Part shown: one piece after another, positions 48,410-61,152 of the stretch | Position numbering within the stretch: position 1 is the first letter of the stretch | How the letters are laid out: each line of letters begins with the position of its first letter | NCBI RefSeq assembly: GCF_000195085.1 | Contig: NC_015380.1 | Span: 544,001-608,000, forward strand | DNA: 64,000 nt | Origin: Candidatus Pelagibacter sp. IMCC9063 | GTDB lineage: Bacteria; Pseudomonadota; Alphaproteobacteria; Pelagibacterales; Pelagibacteraceae | Reading direction: 5' to 3' | Notes under the pieces: model-generated | What the model saw: the letters and a program-made list of their open reading frames with translations, nothing else | What the model was told of the DNA's origin: nothing | Database searches by the model: none | Translations under genes and position numbers: made by a program

Positions 48410-49818
48410 AGTTGAGTTCCACCCACGGTTATTTCATCTACCAATATAGAAGGCTGACCAACACCGACAGGAACCCATTGCCCATTTTTTCCACAAGTTC
48501 CAATTCCCGGATCTAGCTTCATGTCATTTCCAACCATGGATACTTTAGTTAAAATGTCCGGCCCATTTCCAATAATTGTAGCACCCTTCACCGGAGAACC
48601 TATTTTTCCATTATTAATTTCATATGCCTCTGTGCATGAAAAAACAAATTTTCCATTTGTTATATCTACTTGCCCACCACCAAATGAAACTGCAAAGATA
48701 CCCTTGTCTACTGATTTGATCATATCTTCCTGGGAGTGTTTTCCGTTAAGCATAAAAGTATTGGTCATTCTTGGCATTGGTGCACATTCAAAACTTTCTC
48801 TTCTGCCATTTCCAGTGGATGTTGTTTTCATTAAACGAGCATTAAGTCTGTCTTGCATATAATTTTTTAATATTCCATTCTCTATAAGAACCGTATTGGA
48901 AGAAGGAGTTCCTTCATCATCAATTGTAATAGACCCTCTTCTGTTAGAGATTGTTCCATCATCTACTATTGTGACATGTTCACTTGCTACCTTTTGATTC
49001 ATCAGATTGTGAAAAGCTGAAGTTTTTTTTCGATTAAAATCTCCTTCCAATCCATGACCGATTGCTTCGTGTAATAAAATTCCAGGCCATCCAGGTCCTA
49101 ATACAACTTTCATTTCCCCGGCAGGAGCCTCTTTACTTTCCAAATTAATCATAGCTTGTCGGTAAGCTTCATCACAAACTTTTTTCCAATCATTATTCGC
49201 AATGTAATCATCGTAATTCATCCGCCCGCCTGTTCCGTAGGATCCAGTTTCCCTTCGACCGTTTTTCTCAACCATAACAGTAACATTAAATCTTATTAAG
49301 GGCCTGACATCCTGAAAGCTTTGTGAATCTGATTTTATAATTTCAATTTCTTGATACTCACCTGAGATAGATGCAGAAACTTGCTTAATTAAAGAATCTT
49401 TTTTTCTCAAATATTCGTCAACATTTTTTAAAATAGAAACTTTTTCCCCAAATGGTTTTGCTTCAATTGGATTAACGTCAGAATACATTTTAGAATTAGA
49501 TCTTTGTGGAGAGGTAGAAATTTTTCCATTTTTATTTTTTAAACTTGAAAGCAAACTCTTAGAAGCCTCAGTAAGAGATTTTTTTGAAATCTCATTCGAA
49601 TGTGAATAGGCAGTAACATCATCAGTAACAGCTCTTAATCCGTAACCTAAAGAGGTGTCGTAACTAGTATTTTTTATCTTGTTGTCGTCGAGAACAAACG
49701 ACTCATTTTTAGAGCTTTCAAAAAACAGCTCACCATCATCACAATTTTTTAGAGTTTCTGACACCAGACGGTCAGCTTCTTGTCGAGTAAGGTCTGTATC
49801 TTTAAAAAAAGTACTCAT
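48406..49818 (-). CDS. tldD: Metalloprotease TldD
   Basis: A 470-residue catalytic partner of TldE/PmbA. The metal-binding 'LLHEAIGHGLEGDF' (HExxxH) is intact, and 'DDEGTPSSNTVLIENGILKN' follows. Together TldD/E cleave peptides after ring or unfolded-state recognition. tldD next to coxB is the usual alphaproteobacterial order. Divergent from coxB with a ~100-base spacer that must hold both promoters. Confidence 0.96.
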   Translation of the reverse strand: MSTFFKDTDLTRQEADRLVSETLKNCDDGELFFESSKNESFVLDDNKIKNTSYDTSLGYGLRAVTDDVTAYSHSNEISKKSLTEASKSLLSSLKNKNGKISTSPQRSNSKMYSDVNPIEAKPFGEKVSILKNVDEYLRKKDSLIKQVSASISGEYQEIEIIKSDSQSFQDVRPLIRFNVTVMVEKNGRRETGSYGTGGRMNYDDYIANNDWKKVCDEAYRQAMINLESKEAPAGEMKVVLGPGWPGILLHEAIGHGLEGDFNRKKTSAFHNLMNQKVASEHVTIVDDGTISNRRGSITIDDEGTPSSNTVLIENGILKNYMQDRLNARLMKTTSTGNGRRESFECAPMPRMTNTFMLNGKHSQEDMIKSVDKGIFAVSFGGGQVDITNGKFVFSCTEAYEINNGKIGSPVKGATIIGNGPDILTKVSMVGNDMKLDPGIGTCGKNGQWVPVGVGQPSILVDEITVGGTQL

Positions 49819-49920
49819 TATTTCTATAATTTTTTTTTATTTTTGTTTAAGTTGTATACTTTTTGTCAAAGTGTCGCAAAGTTAACATTGCTAAATTTTG
49901 ATACAAGGTTGATTACAATT

Positions 49921-50730
49921 ATGAAACATTTTTTATTATCTATCTTTACTTTTTTGCTTGGGAGTAGTGCATTGGCAGAACAGCCAAAAAATTGGCAACT
50001 AGGATATCAAAACAGCGTAACACCTGTCATGAACGATCTTGTTTTTATGCATGATTATATTTTACTTCCTATCATTACAGCAATTTCAGTATTTGTTTTG
50101 TTTTTAATTCTGTATGCTGTCTGGAAGTTTAGGGCTTCTAAGAATCCAAACCCCTCAAAGACTTCTCACAATACTTTAATAGAAGTTTTGTGGACAGTGA
50201 TACCATGTTTAATACTGGTGGTGATTGCAATTCCTTCTTTTAAGCTATTGTACAAACAGGATATAATTCCGAAAGCTGACATTACAATCAAAGCAATTGG
50301 CTATCAGTGGTATTGGGGCTACGAATATCCTGATCAAAAAATAGCTTTTGAAGCTTCAATGATTGAAACAAAAGATTTGAAACCAGGTCAACCTAGATTA
50401 TTAGCTACGGATAGACATGTAGTTGTCCCCGTGAATAAAGTTGTAAAAGTTTTGATTACTGCAAATGATGTCTTGCATGCTTGGGCACTACCTGCATTTG
50501 GAGTGAAAAGAGATGCGGTTCCGGGACGAATAAATGAAACTTGGTTTAGAGCTGAAAAAGAAGGAATTTTTTACGGACAATGTTCAGAATTGTGCGGAAT
50601 AAAACATGCTTTTATGCCAATTACAGTTGAGGTTGTTTCTGAACAAAAATACAAAGAGTGGGTGGAGATGGCAAAAGTAAAATACGCAATGTACCCAGAG
50701 AAAAAATTTTTAGCTAAAAAAGAACAATAG
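49921..50730 (+). CDS. coxB: Cytochrome c oxidase subunit II (main enzyme)
   Basis: 269 residues. A signal peptide ('MKHFLLSIFTFLLGSSALAE') is followed by two membrane helices and a periplasmic cupredoxin domain. The CuA site is complete: 'DVLHAWALP', and 'GQCSELCGIKHAFM' with both Cys, Glu, His and Met. 'AIGYQWYWGYEYP' is the aromatic electron-entry patch. The ATG at 49921 is chosen because it begins the signal peptide. coxA follows after eleven bases. Confidence 0.97.
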   Translation: MKHFLLSIFTFLLGSSALAEQPKNWQLGYQNSVTPVMNDLVFMHDYILLPIITAISVFVLFLILYAVWKFRASKNPNPSKTSHNTLIEVLWTVIPCLILVVIAIPSFKLLYKQDIIPKADITIKAIGYQWYWGYEYPDQKIAFEASMIETKDLKPGQPRLLATDRHVVVPVNKVVKVLITANDVLHAWALPAFGVKRDAVPGRINETWFRAEKEGIFYGQCSELCGIKHAFMPITVEVVSEQKYKEWVEMAKVKYAMYPEKKFLAKKEQ

Positions 50731-50738
50731 GATTTTAA

Positions 50739-52352
<1,614 letters not shown>

Positions 52353-53062: not shown

Positions 53063-53308
53063 ATGAGCTCTGAATACAGTGTTTTATCAACAATAATCAT
53101 ACTCCTCGCCTTATTCCTGTATTTTTCTTGGTTTATAAGTTCTGTGAGATTTAATACTCAAAAACTTAAAGAAAGAAATTTAAATGAAAAATTTAAAGAA
53201 AAATCTTTTTTAAAAAGTTTTATAGATCCTGACCTAAGTAGCAAAAGTATTTCATTTTTTTTAATTATGCTAAGTCTTTTTTTGATTTATAAATTTGTCT
53301 TTTTATAA
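53063..53308 (+). CDS. Small two-helix membrane protein, unknown
   Basis: An 81-residue protein: an N-terminal helix ('TIIILLALFLYFSWFISSV'), a charged middle ('QKLKERNLNEKFKEKSFLKS') and a C-terminal helix ('SISFFLIMLSLFLIYKFVF'). No family recognised. It lies alone on the plus strand between the CBS gene and the second oxidase operon, ending 16 bases from it. Confidence 0.6.
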   Translation: MSSEYSVLSTIIILLALFLYFSWFISSVRFNTQKLKERNLNEKFKEKSFLKSFIDPDLSSKSISFFLIMLSLFLIYKFVFL

Positions 53309-53324
53309 AAATTTTATAAAATTA

Positions 53325-53660
53325 TTAGCTGCTTCCTGCGACAAAATAAAATAATCTTGTAAATACAGTATATTGAGATTCAGCAGCCATCATAAAAATA
53401 AATGCAGCAATAGCTGTCATCGGCCATAATAAAACATTAATTAATGCATATCTTTCCCAAAGCAAATGCATAAAAAAAGCCATAATCAATCCGGCCTTAG
53501 CAAACATAAAGAATATTATTAATGACCATCTCAACAATCCTTGAAATTGATAATAGTCAACTGCATAAGAGAAACCACTTATTATAAATAAAAGACCCCA
53601 AATCCAAAGGTAAGTGCCCAGTCCGTGAGTTGTTGTTTTATTTTTAGTTTCTTCAGCCAT
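53325..53660 (-). CDS. Cytochrome c oxidase subunit IV-like protein (alternative oxidase)
   Basis: A 111-residue protein with three membrane helices. 'LRWSLIIFFMFAKAGLIMAF' followed by 'FMHLLWER' is typical of the prokaryotic subunit IV family (K in the middle helix, 'MHLxWE'). Last gene of the second oxidase operon, eight bases after the preceding subunit III gene. It probably stabilises the CuB centre in subunit I, as inferred from the family. Confidence 0.82.
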   Translation of the reverse strand: MAEETKNKTTTHGLGTYLWIWGLLFIISGFSYAVDYYQFQGLLRWSLIIFFMFAKAGLIMAFFMHLLWERYALINVLLWPMTAIAAFIFMMAAESQYTVFTRLFYFVAGSS

Positions 53661-53668
53661 AATTCAAA

Positions 53669-54373
53669 TTACCATAAGTAAAAAAATGCAAAAATAAAAA
53701 CCCATACCAAGTCCACAAAGTGCCAATACAGTCCCAATATTTCAATTGCTACATAATCGGATTTCATACTGGTAAAGAATCCTCTTTTCCCGGATTCAAA
53801 ATCACCCCTCCAAGTTTTTCTTGCAAAGATAAATAGAAAAATTACTCCAATAGTAACATGCGTTCCATGAAAGCCTGTTACCATAAAAAAAATTGCACCA
53901 AACTGATTTGCCCCCATAGGGTTAGACCATGGTCTAATCCCTTCCTCAAAAATTAATTTTGACCATTCAAAAGCCTGCATGCCAACAAAAGTAAGTCCAC
54001 CTATTGCAGTTAAAAAAATAAATAAGGCACAAAGTTTTCTTTTTTTTTCATAGCCAAATTTAACAGCAAGGGCCATAGTTCCACTACTTGTAATTAATAC
54101 AAAGGTCATAATTGCAATTAGCAAGAGAGGAACGTGCACTCCAAACACCTCAAGAGCAAAAACTTCGCTGGCATTAGGCCATGGTATGGGTGTTGAGCTA
54201 CGGGCCGACATGTAAGAAATTAAAAAACAACTAAAAATGAATGTGTCGCTAAGCAGAAATATCCACATCATTGCTTTCCCCCACTTAACACCCTTAAAAG
54301 TAACTTGATCAGATGAGAAATCGTGAGTCAGACCTTTAAAACCTTTTGGTAAATTAGATAGGTTATTGCTCAT
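53669..54373 (-). CDS. coxP: Heme-copper oxidase subunit III, second copy (CoxP-like)
   Basis: A 234-residue subunit III-family protein with about seven helices. 'KWGKAMMWIFLLSDTFIFSC' near the start, 'GMQAFEWSKLI', 'VTGFHGTHVTIG' and 'DYVAIEILGLYWHFVDLVWV' are conserved subunit III blocks, with the lipid-binding His/Glu residues. Symbol follows position in the coxMNOP-type operon. Precedes the subunit IV-like gene. Confidence 0.85.
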   Translation of the reverse strand: MSNNLSNLPKGFKGLTHDFSSDQVTFKGVKWGKAMMWIFLLSDTFIFSCFLISYMSARSSTPIPWPNASEVFALEVFGVHVPLLLIAIMTFVLITSSGTMALAVKFGYEKKRKLCALFIFLTAIGGLTFVGMQAFEWSKLIFEEGIRPWSNPMGANQFGAIFFMVTGFHGTHVTIGVIFLFIFARKTWRGDFESGKRGFFTSMKSDYVAIEILGLYWHFVDLVWVFIFAFFYLW

Positions 54374-54382
54374 TTTTTTTCA

Positions 54383-55021
54383 TCAGCTGTTAATCATAAG
54401 TCCAAATAGCACTACCCAAACTAAAAATAAAAAATGCCAATAAATTCCGCACAGTTTAACACTACTCTGTATAGATGGGGCTCTAATATTTTCATTGTAA
54501 ACTTTTTGAGTTGCTTTTTTTAAAAAAAATAAACCACCAACTAAATGCAACACATGCAAAGTTGTAAAAAGATAGAAATAGGAATTTGCAATATTAGAAT
54601 TGAAAAAATAACCTTGCGCTATTAATTGTCTCCATGCAATTACTTGACCAATAATAAAAACGACTGCAAGAAAGGCAATTATAAGAAGTAAAAATTTAAC
54701 TTTCTTAAAATCTAGAATGTCAGATTTGTTTTTTGCCAAGTGAAACAATACGCTACTTAAAAACAATACAAAAGTATTAAACCATAATAGTTTTGGTTCT
54801 GGCATTTTTTCCCAATCATGAAGCAACATTCGGTCTGCATAAGTCACTATAAATAATGAAAAAAAAATTATACTAACTGTCATTATTCCTTTAAGTCCCA
54901 AATGAGCTTTCGTTAAATTTATAGTTTTTCCACTATGTAAGTTATCTTGATTTGATTGTTCTAGGTCCCAAGGTTTTTCACTCAAAAGGTCAAATAAATT
55001 TTTTTCTTTTTTAATCATCAA
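54383..55021 (-). CDS. coxO: Heme-copper oxidase subunit III, first copy (CoxO-like)
   Basis: A 212-residue protein of the same superfamily but divergent: a ~40-residue soluble N-terminus ('NLFDLLSEKPWDLEQ'), then five helices with 'QVIAWRQLIAQGYFF', 'TTLHVLHLVGGLFF' and the C-terminal 'LCGIYWHFLFLVWVVLFGLM'. Starts inside the subunit I stop (ATGA), so translation is coupled. Two tandem subunit III genes are typical for coxMNOP. Confidence 0.83.
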   Translation of the reverse strand: MMIKKEKNLFDLLSEKPWDLEQSNQDNLHSGKTINLTKAHLGLKGIMTVSIIFFSLFIVTYADRMLLHDWEKMPEPKLLWFNTFVLFLSSVLFHLAKNKSDILDFKKVKFLLLIIAFLAVVFIIGQVIAWRQLIAQGYFFNSNIANSYFYLFTTLHVLHLVGGLFFLKKATQKVYNENIRAPSIQSSVKLCGIYWHFLFLVWVVLFGLMINS

Positions 55022-56856
55022 GTCTTCTCTACTTTTGCTCCCAAAACCTCACTCGGTGGAACATTTTGGGGAATGTAATCTTCTTTTGCTCCTGGAACAC
55101 TATAATCATAAGCCCAGCGATAAACTATGGGCAAGTCCTTACCAAAGTTCCCATGCTGCGGGGGAACATGCTCTGTTTGCCATTCTAAGGAGCATGCTTG
55201 CCAAGGATTTCTACCAGCAACTTTTCCAAGACGGATGCTAGAAATAATATTATACAAAAATATCAATTGGGCAAATCCAACAACTAATGCTGCTATGGTA
55301 ATAAATTGATTCAATCCTTCTGCAGAAGTTGGAATATAAGGGCTATTGTACATTTCGTAATATCTTCTAGGAACTCCTATAAATCCTAGATAATGCATTG
55401 GAAAGTAAATCGCATAAGATCCTAAAAAAGTTACCCAAAAATGAAATTTACCCATAGCCTCATTTAAAAACCTACCAGTTACTAAAGGATACCAGTGGTA
55501 AATAGCACCAAAAATTACAAGCACAGGAGCAATTCCCATTACCATATGAAAGTGAGCAACAACAAAATATGTATCAGATAAAGGAACATCGACTATAACA
55601 TTTCCCAAAAAGAGACCAGTTATTCCACCGTTAACAAATGTTAAAATAAAAGCTAGAGAGAATAACATCGGTAAATTGAGTCTTATATTCCCCCTCCATA
55701 ATGTTAAAATCCAATTATAAACTTTAATAGCAGTTGGGACTGCAATAATTAATGTGGTAGTGGCAAAGAAAAAGCCAAACCAAGGATTCATTCCACTTAC
55801 ATACATGTGGTGAGCCCAAACAAAAAAACTTAACGCTCCTATAATTACAATTGCCCAAACCATCATTCTATAGCCAAAAATATTTTTCCTAGCATGAATC
55901 GAAATTAAATCTGAAACGATTCCGAAGGCAGGAAGAGCAACAATATAAACTTCTGGATGTCCAAAAAACCAAAAAAGATGCTGAAATAAAATAGGACTTC
56001 CTCCTCCATATTTTAGATGCTCCCCCATTTGAACCATGGCAGGCATAAAAAAACTTGTGCCAAGCAAGCTATCAAGAGTCATCATTATACAACTGACAAT
56101 TAAAGCGGGAAAAGCCAACATAGCTAAAATAGTAGCTGTAAAAATCCCCCAAATTGTTAAAGGCATTCTCATTAAGGTCATACCCCTAGTTCGCGCTTGA
56201 AGAATTGTTATAATATAGTTAAGTCCACCCATAGTGAATCCGATAACAAAAAGAGAAAGTGACAAAAGCATTAACACTATTCCACTTTCAGAACCGGGTG
56301 TACCAGATGTTATTGCTTGTGGTGGATAAAGAGTCCAACCAGCCCCTGTGGGTCCTCCAGGAACAAAAAAGCTTGCTACCAAAACTACAACAGCAATAAA
56401 ATACATCCAGAAACTAAGCATGTTTAAATAAGGGAAAACCATATCTCTTGACCCAACCATCAGAGGTATTAAAAAATTTCCAAAACCACCTAGGAATAAA
56501 GCAGTCAAAAGATATACAACCATAATCATTCCATGCATGGTTACAAATTGATAATACCCAGCTGGACCTAAAAATGAAAAAACTTCAGGAAACCCAAGTT
56601 GCAGTCTCATTAGCCAAGACAACACCAGAGCTAACAATCCAATAGAGATTGCTGTTATGGAATACTGAATGCCAATTACTTTTGCATCTTGGCAAAAAAT
56701 CCATTTTGTTATGAAACTTTTGGGATGATATAAATCCTGTTCTGGAATTTCAGATTCAACTTGTTCTTCTGTTTTTGACGTAATGTGCCCACCGTCGGAT
56801 ACTTCAGATGACTTGGCCTCAATCCCAAACTTTTGTTCAGGAAAATCGTCAGACAT
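55018..56856 (-). CDS. coxN: Heme-copper oxidase subunit I of the alternative oxidase (CoxN-like)
   Basis: About 612 residues. The ATG at 56856 follows a GGGAGG site; the in-frame start 15 bases upstream is less likely. A ~75-residue soluble N-terminus precedes twelve helices. Ligand motifs are intact: 'VTMHGMIMVVYLLT', '[17 protein letters not shown]' (A1-type), 'VWAHHMYVSGM' and 'VVAHFHMVMG'. 'FVNGGITGLFLGNVIVDVPL' replaces the usual 'GVTGVVLAN'-like segment seen in coxA. A second terminal oxidase distinct from coxA. Confidence 0.93.
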   Translation of the reverse strand: MSDDFPEQKFGIEAKSSEVSDGGHITSKTEEQVESEIPEQDLYHPKSFITKWIFCQDAKVIGIQYSITAISIGLLALVLSWLMRLQLGFPEVFSFLGPAGYYQFVTMHGMIMVVYLLTALFLGGFGNFLIPLMVGSRDMVFPYLNMLSFWMYFIAVVVLVASFFVPGGPTGAGWTLYPPQAITSGTPGSESGIVLMLLSLSLFVIGFTMGGLNYIITILQARTRGMTLMRMPLTIWGIFTATILAMLAFPALIVSCIMMTLDSLLGTSFFMPAMVQMGEHLKYGGGSPILFQHLFWFFGHPEVYIVALPAFGIVSDLISIHARKNIFGYRMMVWAIVIIGALSFFVWAHHMYVSGMNPWFGFFFATTTLIIAVPTAIKVYNWILTLWRGNIRLNLPMLFSLAFILTFVNGGITGLFLGNVIVDVPLSDTYFVVAHFHMVMGIAPVLVIFGAIYHWYPLVTGRFLNEAMGKFHFWVTFLGSYAIYFPMHYLGFIGVPRRYYEMYNSPYIPTSAEGLNQFITIAALVVGFAQLIFLYNIISSIRLGKVAGRNPWQACSLEWQTEHVPPQHGNFGKDLPIVYRWAYDYSVPGAKEDYIPQNVPPSEVLGAKVEKT

Positions 56857-56937
56857 TGATTCCTCCCTCAAAGCTAAACATAACCCAGATAAGGCTATCT
56901 ATGCAAATATTAGATAGTTTTAAAAGCAATGGAAAAT

Positions 56938-57016: not shown

Positions 57017-57814
57017 TTAAGATTTCGAGGCAATTTGCTCGTATGATTTTTGCTTGGAAAGCCATTCGTTGTAATTTTTTTGATCAACCACCACCACTTT
57101 ACCTCTCATGGCATAGTGTCCTGTTCCGCAAAACTCAGCACACAAAACTTCAAACGTGCCTAATTTAGTTGGTTCAAACCAATAATAAGTTATTGAACCA
57201 GGAAGCATATCCATCTTTGCCCTAAACTGAGGAATGTAAAAATTATGCAAAACATCCGTTGACCTTAAAAGAACTTTTACAGGTTGGTTTTTTAAAAGAT
57301 GAAGAGGACCATTTGCAATAACAATATCATCGTTACCATTTTTGTCCTTTGAGCTAATTCCAAATGGATTTTTATCGTTAATATTTTTTATATTTGTTTT
57401 TCCAAGTTTACCGTCTTTACCAGGAAGTCTATAGCCCCAACCCCACTGATAAGCTAGCACTTCAATTTTATAAGCATTTTTTGGAACAGTGACATATTGA
57501 TTCCATACAAAAAGTCCAGGAGCAAGGAGAGCTGCAATACCCAATGTGGTAATAAGAGTTAGTCTGAACTCAAGCTTACTATCTTCGGGTTTGTACTCTG
57601 ATCTTTTTTCTTTTTGATATCTAAACTTCCAAACGCAGTAAACCATAAATAATCCCACAGCTATAAAAACAAATCCAGTAACCCAGAACGTTAGAATTAT
57701 TGTATCGTCAATACTCCCCCAGTTTGAAGCAATAGGAGTCCACCACCAAGGCGTTAAAATATGAAAAACAACTGAGCCAATTAAAACTAAAAGAAAAACA
57801 ATTACTACTGTCAT
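57017..57814 (-). CDS. coxM: Cytochrome c oxidase subunit II of the alternative oxidase (CoxM-like)
   Basis: 265 residues. Two N-terminal membrane helices without a clear cleaved signal, then the CuA cupredoxin domain: 'VLAYQWGWGYRLP', 'STDVLHNFYIPQFRAK' and 'LCAEFCGTGHYAMRG' with both Cys, Glu, His and Met. A ~40-residue insert rich in Asn/Lys/Asp follows the aromatic patch and is absent from coxB. Its ATG overlaps the stop of the 50-residue microprotein (ATGA). Confidence 0.92.
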   Translation of the reverse strand: MTVVIVFLLVLIGSVVFHILTPWWWTPIASNWGSIDDTIILTFWVTGFVFIAVGLFMVYCVWKFRYQKEKRSEYKPEDSKLEFRLTLITTLGIAALLAPGLFVWNQYVTVPKNAYKIEVLAYQWGWGYRLPGKDGKLGKTNIKNINDKNPFGISSKDKNGNDDIVIANGPLHLLKNQPVKVLLRSTDVLHNFYIPQFRAKMDMLPGSITYYWFEPTKLGTFEVLCAEFCGTGHYAMRGKVVVVDQKNYNEWLSKQKSYEQIASKS

Positions 57815-57963
57815 AGATTCTTTCTATTAAAATATTTGTTTAAATATTCTTTAAAATATTTTTGGTAGTAGTATTTCGCAAAAAAGAAAAAAATAAAAGA
57901 AAAGCATATGACCGCCACTGCAATCTTTGCTCCAGAATTGTCACTGACACAAACTGCGCACAT
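57811..57963 (-). CDS. Fifty-residue membrane microprotein with N-terminal C-x-x-C, head of the alternative oxidase operon
   Basis: ATG at 57963 to TGA at 57811-57813. The protein begins 'MCAVCVSDNSGAKIAVAV', has one membrane helix ('AVAVICFSFIFFFFAKYY') and a basic/aromatic tail ending 'YFNRKNL'. A strong GGGGAGG at 57970-57976 lies six bases before the ATG, and the stop overlaps the coxM start, so it is almost certainly translated with the oxidase. The paired Cys could bind copper or a heme/thiol partner; that is inference. No family is recognised. Confidence 0.72.
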   Translation of the reverse strand: MCAVCVSDNSGAKIAVAVICFSFIFFFFAKYYYQKYFKEYLNKYFNRKNL

Positions 57964-57969
57964 ACTTAA

Positions 57970-57976
57970 CCTCCCC
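57970..57976 (-). promoter_or_regulatory. Strong ribosome-binding site of the C-x-x-C microprotein
   Basis: GGGGAGG on the minus strand, six bases before the ATG at 57963. It is one of the best Shine-Dalgarno matches in the window and is the main support for this short gene. It also marks the first gene of the alternative oxidase operon. Confidence 0.75.
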
Positions 57977-58124
57977 ATGTACTCTAGAATTTTGAGACCA
58001 TTAGTCTTACTTATTCTTTCAGCAATATATGCTAAATTGGTCTTACTTGTAAATTTTAGTTATTGTTATAATTATTGAACTATTGATGTGCTATTATGTA
58101 GCGTATTTTAAATAAGGAGTGAAT

Positions 58125-59045
58125 TTGTCTAATATTAAGAGCGCTTATAAGAAGAAAGAAAAGTTTGATTTCTTTTTTTATATAAATTCACTTTTTTTGT
58201 TAATGAAGCCAAGAGTTATGTCTCTTGTTATCTTCACTTGCCTTGTCGGGCTTATTATTGCTCCTGGAAATATAGATTTATATAGAAATTTTGTATCCTT
58301 AATTTTAGTAGCAATTGGGGCAGGAGCTTCTGGCATGCTTAATATGTGGTATGATTCTGACATTGATGCGATTATGTCCAGAACATGCTTAAGGCCAATT
58401 CCCAGTGGAAAGTTAAAAAGACAAGAAGCTTTATTTTATGGAATTGCACTTTCTGCTTTTTCTGTTTCATTCCTGCATTATTTTGCAAATTTTTTATCAG
58501 CAGCACTGTTAGCTTTTACAATTTTTTTCTACGTATTTATTTATACAATCTGGCTAAAAAGAAAAACTCCACAAAATATAGTTATTGGAGGTGCGGCAGG
58601 AGCTTTCCCCCCCGTAATTGGATGGACTATTTCTACCAACACTATTGGCATTGAGCCAATCATTCTATTTTTAATTATTTTTCTTTGGACCCCATCTCAT
58701 TTTTGGGCCCTTAGTTTATATAAAAATGAAGATTATAAAAAAGCAAAAATACCCATGCTTTCGGTTGTAAGTGGAGAAGAGGTAACAAAAAAAAATATTT
58801 TATTCTATTCGATAATTCTATGGCCATTTACGCTAGCACCATATTTTTTAAATTTTGCTAGTTATTCCAATTTCGTATTTGTGGTAATTTTTGGATTTTT
58901 TTATATTTTTTTATCTTTTAAACTTTTAATTACCAAAACAAAATCTGCTTCTAATAAAATAGCTAGAAATATTTTTATATATTCAATATTTTATCTTTTT
59001 TTTATTTTCTCAACTATTTTAATAGATAATTATTTCTTTATATAA
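58125..59045 (+). CDS. ctaB: Protoheme IX farnesyltransferase (heme O synthase)
   Basis: About 306 residues with nine helices. It farnesylates heme b to heme o, the precursor of heme a for the oxidases. The UbiA-like motifs are 'NMWYDSDIDAIMSRTCLRP' and 'YKNEDYKKAKIPMLSVV'. AAGGAG at 58114-58119 is spaced five bases from TTG 58125, so TTG is preferred over the GTG at 58119 that overlaps the site. It starts a plus-strand operon with the small gene, ctaG, coxC and surf1. Confidence 0.93.
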   Translation: MSNIKSAYKKKEKFDFFFYINSLFLLMKPRVMSLVIFTCLVGLIIAPGNIDLYRNFVSLILVAIGAGASGMLNMWYDSDIDAIMSRTCLRPIPSGKLKRQEALFYGIALSAFSVSFLHYFANFLSAALLAFTIFFYVFIYTIWLKRKTPQNIVIGGAAGAFPPVIGWTISTNTIGIEPIILFLIIFLWTPSHFWALSLYKNEDYKKAKIPMLSVVSGEEVTKKNILFYSIILWPFTLAPYFLNFASYSNFVFVVIFGFFYIFLSFKLLITKTKSASNKIARNIFIYSIFYLFFIFSTILIDNYFFI

Positions 59046-59048
59046 ACT

Positions 59049-59165
59049 ATGAAACTTAAAACAAAAAATAAATTAGTTGCTTGGGTACTGGTTGGGTGTA
59101 TGATTTTTTTCTTCCTTTATACCATTCACAATATTACTGGCGGAATTTTTAATCGAGTATTATGA
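59049..59165 (+). CDS. CoxF-like small membrane protein between ctaB and ctaG (38 residues)
   Basis: The frame from ATG 59049 to TGA 59163-59165 encodes 'MKLKTKNKLVAWVLVGCMIF' then 'FFLYTIHNITGGIFNRVL': a basic N-terminus and one membrane helix. It begins three bases after the ctaB stop and overlaps the ctaG start (ATGA). Alphaproteobacterial cox operons often carry a short single-helix protein (CoxF) exactly here. Assembly or structural role is inferred from position only. Confidence 0.7.
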   Translation: MKLKTKNKLVAWVLVGCMIFFFLYTIHNITGGIFNRVL

Positions 59166-59701
59166 TTAAAATAAAAGAAAGAAAATTAAACCCCTGGTAT
59201 TTGGTTGGAATTTTTTTTATTATGCTTGGATTATCCTTTGCATCTGTTCCTCTTTACGATCTTTTTTGTAGAGTTACTGGATTTGGCGGCACTACCCAAA
59301 AATCCACTCAATTACCAAAAGTAATTATTAATAAAAATATTAGCATGAGGTTTGATACAAATGTTGGAGGAAACCTGCCGATAAGTTTTGAAGTAAAAAA
59401 TAATAAAACAGATATTAAGCCAGGAGAGCTTAAAAATAGTACTTTTGTTGTAACCAACGAAAGTAATTTGCCTTTAAAAATGGTTGCTACTTTTAATGTT
59501 ACCCCCGATTCGGTTGGTAAGTACTTTAATAAACTTGAGTGTTTTTGTTTTGAACAGCAGCCGCTTTCAGGTGGAGAAATAAAAGAATTCAACCTATCTT
59601 ACTACATAGACCCCGAAATAACCAAAGACCCAGCGACGAAAAATGTCAAAGATATAACTTTATCTTATACTTTATTTGAGTTAGATAAGTTTCAAAAATA
59701 A
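59162..59701 (+). CDS. ctaG: Cytochrome c oxidase copper chaperone CtaG/Cox11
   Basis: 179 residues: one N-terminal membrane helix ('WYLVGIFFIMLGLSFASVPL'), then the periplasmic Ig-like domain. 'YDLFCRVTGFGGTTQ' holds the first conserved Cys, and 'LECFCFEQQPLSGGE' holds the Cu(I)-binding C-F-C-F. It delivers copper to CuB of subunit I. Whether it also serves the alternative oxidase is unknown; no second copy is present here. Confidence 0.96.
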   Translation: MIKIKERKLNPWYLVGIFFIMLGLSFASVPLYDLFCRVTGFGGTTQKSTQLPKVIINKNISMRFDTNVGGNLPISFEVKNNKTDIKPGELKNSTFVVTNESNLPLKMVATFNVTPDSVGKYFNKLECFCFEQQPLSGGEIKEFNLSYYIDPEITKDPATKNVKDITLSYTLFELDKFQK

Positions 59702-59703
59702 TT

Positions 59704-60495
59704 ATGTCATCAGCAGAAAAAAAACACGATTACCACTTAGTTGACCCAAGTCCTTGGCCAATCTTTTGTTCCTTTGCTAGTTTAATAGTATGTTTTGGAG
59801 CTGTTTATTATTTCACGACTAAAAATCTTTGGCTAACTTTTGTTGGCTTGGCTGTCCTGTTCTACGGGGTATTTATGTGGTTTCGAGAAGTAGTTATTGA
59901 AGCAGAGCATAAGGGAGATCACACGCCTGTTGTTCAAATCAGTCATCGTTATGGAATGGTTTTGTTTATCGCTTCAGAGGTAATGTTTTTTGTTGCTTGG
60001 TTTTGGGCATATTTTGATGCTAGTTTATTTCCAGATCAAGCGATCGGCGGAGTGTGGCCTCCAAAAGATATTCAAACGTTAGATCCTTGGCATATTCCAC
60101 TAATTAATACGCTTATTTTATTGTTATCAGGAACAACTGTTACTTGGGCGCACCATGCGATGTTAGAAAATGACAGGAAGAGTTTAGTTCAGGGTCTAGT
60201 GCTAACAGTAATTCTTGGTGCAATTTTTACTATGTTTCAAGCATACGAATATATGGTGGCATCATTTACAATGAGTAGCGGAATTTATGGATCTACTTTT
60301 TACATGGCCACTGGTTTTCATGGGTTTCATGTATTAATAGGTACCATCTTTTTAGCAGTATGTTTATTTAGAGCTAAACGTGGTCACTATACACCAGACC
60401 ATCATTTTGGATTTGAGGCGGCTGCTTGGTACTGGCATTTTGTGGATGTGGTTTGGTTATTTCTTTTTGCATCAATATACATCTGGGGAAGTTAA
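59704..60495 (+). CDS. coxC: Cytochrome c oxidase subunit III (main enzyme)
   Basis: 263 residues with seven helices. 'HDYHLVDPSPWPIFCSFAS' at the start, 'FIASEVMFFVAWFWAYF' with the conserved Glu, 'ATGFHGFHVLIGTIFL' and the C-terminal 'AAWYWHFVDVVWLFLFASIY' are canonical. Much closer to the mitochondrial-type subunit III than the two copies in the alternative operon. Follows ctaG after two bases. Confidence 0.97.
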   Translation: MSSAEKKHDYHLVDPSPWPIFCSFASLIVCFGAVYYFTTKNLWLTFVGLAVLFYGVFMWFREVVIEAEHKGDHTPVVQISHRYGMVLFIASEVMFFVAWFWAYFDASLFPDQAIGGVWPPKDIQTLDPWHIPLINTLILLLSGTTVTWAHHAMLENDRKSLVQGLVLTVILGAIFTMFQAYEYMVASFTMSSGIYGSTFYMATGFHGFHVLIGTIFLAVCLFRAKRGHYTPDHHFGFEAAAWYWHFVDVVWLFLFASIYIWGS

Positions 60496-60501
60496 TTCTC
60501 T

Positions 60502-61152
60502 TTGAAAAAATTTTTTTTTAACCTTTTTTCTATCTCAATTATTTTTTTACTTCTAAGTCTAGGAACATGGCAGCTTATTCGCTTGCAATGGAAGCAAGAA
60601 CTTATCTTTGAAATTGAAAACTCTGCAAATAAAAAAGCTAGAGTTTTTCAATCACGCAACCATAAAAATTTTCAAAAAGTAAAATTGGAAGGAAAATTAT
60701 TAAAGCAGAATTATTTTATTTACCGCTTAAGCGAAAAAGGAAAGTATGGTTTTGATTTACTATCAATTCTTCAATTAGATTCTTCAAATTTGATACTTAT
60801 AAAAAGAGGCTGGACAAGAAAAATAGACGATACACTAAAACTTAACAATACTGAGGAAACGTCTGTGTTTGAAGGAGTGCTGTATCCATTAAAAGAAAAA
60901 GGCCTGTTTACTCCTGATAATAGTCCCAAAGAAAATTTTCTTTATTATTTTGATAAAAAAAAGTTGGAACATGAGCTAAATAATAAGTTTTATCCCTATA
61001 TATTAGTACAAGACCAAAAAGACCTAAAATTTTCAAATCTAGAAAATAAACAAATAGTAACAATATCTAATAATCACCTTCAATATGCAGTCACTTGGTT
61101 TGTTTTGGCGATTGGTATAATAATTGCTTTTTGGTTTTATAAAAGAAAGTAG
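60502..61152 (+). CDS. surf1: SURF1 family oxidase assembly protein
   Basis: 216 residues with one helix at each end. 'LLSLGTWQLIRLQWKQELI' (GxWQxxRxxWK) at the N-terminus and 'NNHLQYAVTWFVLAIGIIIA' (NNHLQYA-x-TWF) at the C-terminus are the two SURF1 signatures. It helps insert heme a into subunit I. The start is TTG at 60502, six bases after coxC; no ATG lies near the conserved N-terminus. Confidence 0.93.
   Translation: MKKFFFNLFSISIIFLLLSLGTWQLIRLQWKQELIFEIENSANKKARVFQSRNHKNFQKVKLEGKLLKQNYFIYRLSEKGKYGFDLLSILQLDSSNLILIKRGWTRKIDDTLKLNNTEETSVFEGVLYPLKEKGLFTPDNSPKENFLYYFDKKKLEHELNNKFYPYILVQDQKDLKFSNLENKQIVTISNNHLQYAVTWFVLAIGIIIAFWFYKRK

Follow-up and report, generated by a model that had tools for sequence, protein, structure and literature searches.

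Among the described systems closest to the one reported here, Sco/SenC is a periplasmic protein that is anchored in the membrane and has a Cys pair serving copper sites, and CcmH consists of a signal peptide, a periplasmic CxxC and then a membrane helix, includes a larger domain, and sits with the cytochrome c maturation genes. Cox11/CtaG (PF04442) combines a single helix with periplasmic thiols and serves CuB assembly. As set out in the passages of PMC9232578 drawn on here, the third Cox11 cysteine stands directly above the membrane surface, close to both the copper site and a pair of CuB histidines, and acts in copper transfer to COX1; the path of copper from Cox11 to the buried CuB is described as poorly understood in the corresponding part of PMC6696091. 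The excerpted account in PMC9145763 describes CtaM (DUF420) and CtaK of Bacillus and Staphylococcus as accessory proteins of heme a oxidases, CtaM with four to five transmembrane segments and CtaK as a lipoprotein with conserved His and Met, with ctaM adjoining ctaB in S. aureus and forming the last operon gene in B. firmus. Regarding the oxidases themselves, the portions of the literature used here report COX operon subtype a-III from Pelagibacterales clades near or in oxygen-minimum zones and from Inquilinus (PMC8879329), credit SAR11 with a type b operon only (PMC4013037), and mention a heme/copper oxidase in LD12 (PMC6018831). The coxMNOPQ operon described below probably corresponds to subtype a-III.

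Next to this operon, the window (the whole stretch of 64,000 nucleotides that was analysed) encodes a 50-residue membrane microprotein, hereafter X, and the features of the locus are collected in the table. The window belongs to a genome of a single 1.28-Mb contig (G000), whose coxM is 80% identical to that of Candidatus Fonsibacter. The same genome also has a canonical aa3 oxidase, with ctaC and ctaD on one side of coxMNOPQ and ctaB, cox11, coxC and surf1 on the other, the two oxidase clusters thus being interleaved.

Table. Features of the coxMNOPQ locus; positions are those of the window unless a relative's locus is named.
Feature	Position	Strand	Basis or remark
ctaC, ctaD (canonical aa3 oxidase)	49780-52352	+	
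Second small gene	53063-53308	+	
Second small gene, L084	4583-4843		
Second small gene, L087	3776-4036		
Second small gene, L150	4318-4560		
Second small gene, L151	18774-19013		
coxQ, subunit IV	53325..53660	-	COX4_pro, PF03626, E 1.7e-11
coxP, COX3-like	53669..54373	-	Profile match
coxO, COX3-like	54383..55021	-	Profile match; Pfam match slightly under cut-off
coxN, subunit I (HPEVY, HHMY)	55018..56871	-	Profile match, motif
coxM, oxidase subunit II, CuA motif CAEFCGTGHYAM	57017..57814	-	Profile match, motif
ATGA overlap, X TGA stop with coxM ATG (57814)	57811..57814	-	Sequence
X, 50-aa microprotein, M-C-A-V-C and one helix	57811..57963	-	ORF, start, alignment, AlphaFold2
Shine-Dalgarno GGGGAGG of X	57970..57976	-	6 bases before X ATG
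ctaB, heme O synthase	58119..59045	+	Divergent neighbour of X in the window
ctaB, cox11, coxC, surf1	58119-61152	+	
cox11, full-length, FCRVTGFGGTT (third cysteine) and CFCF	59162..59701	+	Profile, sequence

Read on the minus strand from 57963 to 57811, the gene translates as MCAVCVSDNSGAKIAVAVICFSFIFFFFAKYYYQKYFKEYLNKYFNRKNL followed by a stop, with Cys at positions 2 and 5, a third Cys inside the helix, and a basic C-terminus. The original prediction had singled out an unusually strong ribosome-binding site and an overlap of the X stop with the coxM start, and both were borne out: GGAGG lies no more than 18 bases from an early ATG in only 2 of the 57 window frames (frames of at least 120 codons), so the remark on the strength of the X site holds. 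A second in-frame ATG at 57978, five codons upstream of the X start, has no Shine-Dalgarno sequence, and in a relative from Baikal (L011, on the same contig as G047:C52) a TAA immediately precedes the same ATG-TGT, which together make the start at MC very likely right. The window and Baikal copies differ by about 16 synonymous and 14 nonsynonymous changes (dS 0.82, dN 0.13, dN/dS 0.16), and pN was lower than pS in 876 of the 903 pairs formed by 43 X sequences, pairs that are non-independent and in many cases near saturation. Judged from sequence, X is thus confirmed as a real protein-coding gene, more than a chance ORF.

With a relative's X as query, matches at E ≤ 0.001 were found in 37 of 99 genomes sampled from the window's family, probably Pelagibacteraceae, including the window genome (36 of the 98 others), and coxM was found at E ≤ 1e-40 in 38 of the same 99. 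Both genes occurred together in 36 genomes, X without coxM in 1, coxM without X in 2, and neither in 60 (Fisher p 2e-23, uncorrected for kinship). The genome with X only (G097) is 63% complete; coxM without X was found in G098 and G111, and since the G111 contig ends inside ctaB, G098 is the single clear case of a coxM operon without X. In G098 the operon (L148) encodes a long-branch CoxN and has a Sco gene nearby, and no Cox11 was found. X was also found in 13 small MarineAlpha5-type genomes (L198-L210), a label that is the name of L018 and L045, the other members bearing other names, two of them Pelagibacteraceae.

Of the 71 genomes that carry the coxM loci L012-L082, 50 were searched with the X profile: 15 of these, each with 0.8-1.6 Mb of sequence, matched at E ≤ 3.3e-6, and the other 35 (1.9-7.5 Mb) gave nothing below E 0.05. 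Twenty coxMNOPQ loci of larger, mostly alphaproteobacterial genomes (L217-L236) had no X and no ctaB directly after coxQ; a number of them stop shortly past coxQ, but the X search covered the entire genome for 19 of the 20. In two overlapping samples, one of 385 genomes from the class and one of 398 from the phylum, the profile found no convincing relative outside the group: matches besides the window's own reached E 5.8e-4 or weaker, many of them spanning the helix only, and none of the loci inspected, in sets of 11 and 5, was a small gene of the X kind. Four of them (L287, L289, L292, L194) have C-x-x-C stretches in frames opposite or across longer frames. An order sample of 147 genomes gave matches in G000, G006, and G171, and the G171 frame is situated opposite a 448-codon response-regulator-like gene. 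Small membrane proteins of the CAVCFG type exist in other phyla.

Neither Pfam nor NCBIfam had a credible match for, or a name for, the window X or its homologues, and no protein of this kind was described in the titles and opening abstract text among the matches listed in the literature search. In a tree of CoxN, the X-linked oxidases viewed, both Fonsibacter-like ones included, form one clade with those of G098 and G111 (19 rows, support 100/100), a topology compatible with a single arrival of X. The window X has the CxxC, the G-[AG]-x-x-[AT] motif, and the single helix that define the family and lies beside coxM, and CxxC-G-[AG]-x-x-[AT] was present in all 22 rows of one alignment (A2) and all 29 of another (A1). 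The existence of this apparently unnamed gene family is well supported; on this pattern of occurrence its members are accessory genes that go with the SAR11-type coxMNOPQ oxidase, absent from the family libraries searched, and what their product does we infer below.

The position of X within the operon varies. X was seen before coxM and divergent from ctaB only in the window genome and G047, both Fonsibacter-like, and in both it adjoins the canonical cox11-coxC-surf1-thrC row. In the remaining X operons viewed, ctaB is the upstream neighbor of X or of cox11-X: the order coxM-coxN-coxO-coxP-coxQ-ctaB-cox11-X-thrC was seen in L083, L084, and L087, X follows ctaB without cox11 in L150, L247, and L243, and MarineAlpha5-type genomes have coxMNOPQ-ctaB-X with cox11 divergent upstream of coxM. 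The X start lies inside the ctaB stop (1 or 4 bases) in all seven annotated MarineAlpha5-type operons (L237-L242, L244). Of the 13 operons in which X follows ctaB or cox11, 12 have the X start no more than 20 bases from the end of that gene. The stretches viewed of the window genome and G047 contain no second ctaB, bar a 23%-identical relative in L085.

The linkage of X to the alternative oxidase is therefore strongly supported by co-occurrence, operon membership, and translational coupling, whereas the proposal that X leads the operon holds for the window genome and L011 and gives way to a terminal position of X in the remaining operons viewed. The same holds for the expectation that the Cys pair and frame would be conserved upstream of coxM: the pair and the protein are conserved, but the position recurs in only one of 72 coxM loci. 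In a scan of the 400 bases upstream of each of these loci (only 46 in L014), an M-C-x-x-C of the right sequence lay directly upstream of coxM in L011, and the other [MVL]C..C matches (L019, L032, L063, L067, L068, L070) were unrelated to X in sequence. Taken literally, conservation upstream of coxM fails because X otherwise closes the operon instead of opening it. On its own the upstream scan would have refuted the prediction; the protein search of whole genomes located X elsewhere in the operon.

The X proteins viewed have 50-67 residues, and the predicted pair at positions 2 and 5 and the single helix were both found, with the CxxC present in 45 of the 46 sequences viewed and lost in L197 only. 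These 46 comprise 44 rows gathered by patterns demanding C..C, which all 30 loci of the family set passed, together with L201 (at a contig edge) and L197 (without cysteines), the two of the 15 wider-search loci that failed the pattern and were viewed apart; L196 is a duplicate of L095, since G232 and G016 appear to be one genome. The coxM contig of G016 bears a second, MarineAlpha5-type Cox11, and G016 may for that reason be a mixed assembly. The third Cys in the helix is present in the window X as predicted but is not conserved, occurring in 1 of 44 sequences, which rules it out as a ligand. MarineAlpha5-type forms have, by eye, an apparent signal peptide whose end, [AVG]-x-A, directly adjoins (R)-C-[AV]-[VI]-C-Y-T and would leave the CxxC at the N-terminus of the mature periplasmic chain; Pelagibacteraceae forms have 13-18 residues ahead of the first Cys, and Fonsibacter-like forms start with M-C. 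The flank that follows the helix is more basic than the mature N-terminal flank in each of the 44 sequences. Given the apparent signal peptide and the basic C-flank, X should be anchored by one helix in an N-out/C-in orientation, with the CxxC standing at the periplasmic membrane face. AlphaFold2 modelled the window X as one helix (residues 10-48) with a loose N-terminus, at a mean pLDDT of 75.1.

Comparison with the described systems leaves X distinct from each. X would share with Cox11/CtaG a single helix, periplasmic thiols, and, as proposed below, a role in CuB assembly, but it lacks the CFCF domain, has the opposite topology (N-out), and gave no match to PF04442 at E ≤ 10 (window X and seven homologues). 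CtaM and CtaK differ from X in that X has one helix and no credible Pfam match, and the known bacterial oxidase assembly proteins surveyed in the part of PMC9145763 used here include none like X. The Sco/SenC profile (PF02630) covers 134 positions, whereas X has only about nine residues before its helix and no match to that profile. The order of signal peptide, CxxC, and helix recalls CcmH, but X matched no CcmH family in Pfam or NCBIfam. Unlike in a c-type cytochrome, the second Cys is followed in the sequences viewed by Y, V, I, or A, never by H, and the residue before the first Cys is, by eye, R, M, L, or I, unlike that of a lipoprotein; L199 alone has A before the first Cys, in an imperfect lipobox (GLAC).

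We also compared the occurrence of X with the form of Cox11, which was found by PF04442 in 85 of the 99 family genomes. Among the 37 genomes with X, 33 have only a short Cox11, with a match that starts somewhere from position 26 to position 35 of the 148-position profile (G016 has a pair of these), 2 have none (G048, G059), and 2 have one full Cox11 each (G000, G047), whereas the 62 genomes without X comprise 50 with a full Cox11 and 12 with none, several of the latter being incomplete; these counts use all 99 genomes. The segment absent from the short forms includes LYxxFCxxTGxGGT, the membrane-proximal stretch with the third cysteine. FCxxT was present in all 30 full Cox11 sequences viewed, the best-scoring 30 of the 85 (28 from genomes without X and the 2 Fonsibacter-like ones), and in none of two sets of 24 and 8 X-side Cox11 sequences; the X-side sequences viewed retain CFC[FY]. 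The set of 24 derives from the 30 X loci L088-L117, leaving out L091 and L093, which have no Cox11, and L094, L095, L101, and L103, whose Cox11 begins at profile position 29-31. In larger coxMNOPQ genomes without X, Cox11 was full in 6 of 7, and none was found in G225. The Cox11 proteins of L237-L242, L244, L083, L084, and L087 take two forms, with the FCxxTGxGGT segment altered or missing. In one single metagenome-derived genome, G213, X (L197, the X of L243, 4206-4373) has lost both cysteines and retained the helix, and no Cox11 was found.

In a Cox11 tree of 46 chosen rows (L276 and L278 left out), the full forms cluster together (95/100) on a long branch opposite the short forms, whose inner order is unresolved. 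A single ancestral change may lie behind the shortened forms, and the association of X with the oxidase may have arisen once, so the counts for X and Cox11 are not independent. X would set its CxxC in much the same place as the third Cox11 cysteine, from a separate chain.

From these sequence-based observations (the presence and conservation of the X gene, its Cys pair and topology signals, the co-occurrence, the operon membership, and the shortened Cox11), we infer copper or thiol chemistry for X, contact with Cox11 and CoxN, and a step at CuB. X would be an accessory protein dedicated to the SAR11-type coxMNOPQ cytochrome c oxidase, held by its single helix so that the thiol pair is presented at the periplasmic membrane face, where it would hand on Cu(I), or keep thiols reduced, between the CFCF copper site of Cox11 and CoxN. 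The destination of the copper would be the CuB site of CoxN, and X would act in trans in place of the third, membrane-proximal cysteine that an ordinary Cox11 supplies in cis. The original prediction had named a metal- or heme-handling subunit or assembly factor; metal-handling assembly appears to fit best, and little speaks for heme, with no CxxCH in X, though X often adjoins ctaB. That X assists the assembly of this oxidase as a periplasmic thiol or copper factor, most likely for CuB delivery, is the reading we prefer, with a probability of roughly 0.4. The G213 protein, cysteine-free in a genome with no Cox11 found, speaks for it, though as a lone metagenome-derived case. A narrower version, in which Cox11 lost its membrane-proximal cysteine, the task passed to a separate 50-67-residue X with a periplasmic CxxC, and X joined the structural-gene operon in Fonsibacter, we regard as doubtful. 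Both estimates are kept at this level by the Fonsibacter-like genomes, by the X genomes without Cox11, and by the possible single change in Cox11. Since G000 and G047 have X beside a full-length Cox11, X does not serve solely to make good a short Cox11, and in these two genomes, the first of which also has the canonical aa3 oxidase, X should do something that a full Cox11 does not. G048 and G059, in which X keeps its CxxC, Cox11 was not found, and Sco is present, argue against a CuB factor. Genomes that appear to combine a Cox11 without the third cysteine with a nearby gene for a periplasmic CxxC protein make the role of that cysteine testable by complementation.

The chief rival, possible but on balance unlikely, is that X is a small structural subunit whose helix packs on CoxN or CoxM and whose Cys pair forms a structural disulfide in the periplasm. 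The coupling of X to ctaB and coxM would be just as natural for a subunit, and close co-occurrence with coxM, translational coupling to it in the window, the retention of X with coxMNOPQ in the two Fonsibacter-like genomes though no shortened Cox11 was found there, and the cysteine-free helix of the G213 protein would all be expected of one. Against this, the remaining X operons viewed have X after the assembly genes ctaB and cox11 and outside the row of subunit genes, coxMNOPQ operons outside the group do without it, and of the five columns that are invariant across the 29-row alignment, four fall at residues 2-15, before or at the start of the helix, the first ten residues being modelled at low confidence.

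It is improbable that X serves CuA instead of CuB, reducing or loading the CuA cysteines of CoxM in bacteria without Sco. Sco was found in only 9 of the 99 family genomes, and in none of 15 small X genomes against all 7 larger ones of the same comparison, and CoxM keeps its CuA motif in the X loci viewed and is coupled to X in the window; however, G048 and G059 have X and Sco together, and most SAR11 genomes without X are also without Sco, so that the absence of Sco does not track X. A role alongside CtaB in the handling of heme O or heme a at the membrane, to which the overlap of X with the end of ctaB in the seven annotated MarineAlpha5-type operons and its place beside ctaB in both Fonsibacter-like genomes would point, is very improbable, given the missing CxxCH, the cox11 gene that separates ctaB from X in L083, L084, and L087, and the family genomes without coxM and X in which ctaB apparently serves the canonical oxidase. 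Although X is short and leads coxM in the window, a chance ORF or a leader peptide with no function as a protein is refuted by the family-wide and wider profile matches, the purifying selection (dN/dS), and the 46 homologous sequences with the same protein at different operon positions.

Two further features of these loci were observed. More than one coxM set per genome occurs in L150 (G048) and L245-L247 (G059), and the second set in L150 is without coxO. A second conserved small gene, whose window and L087 copies matched no Pfam family above cut-off, encodes 79-86 residues with two hydrophobic stretches beside coxMNOPQ, and it lies directly before coxM in several relatives and at the far end of the operon in the window.
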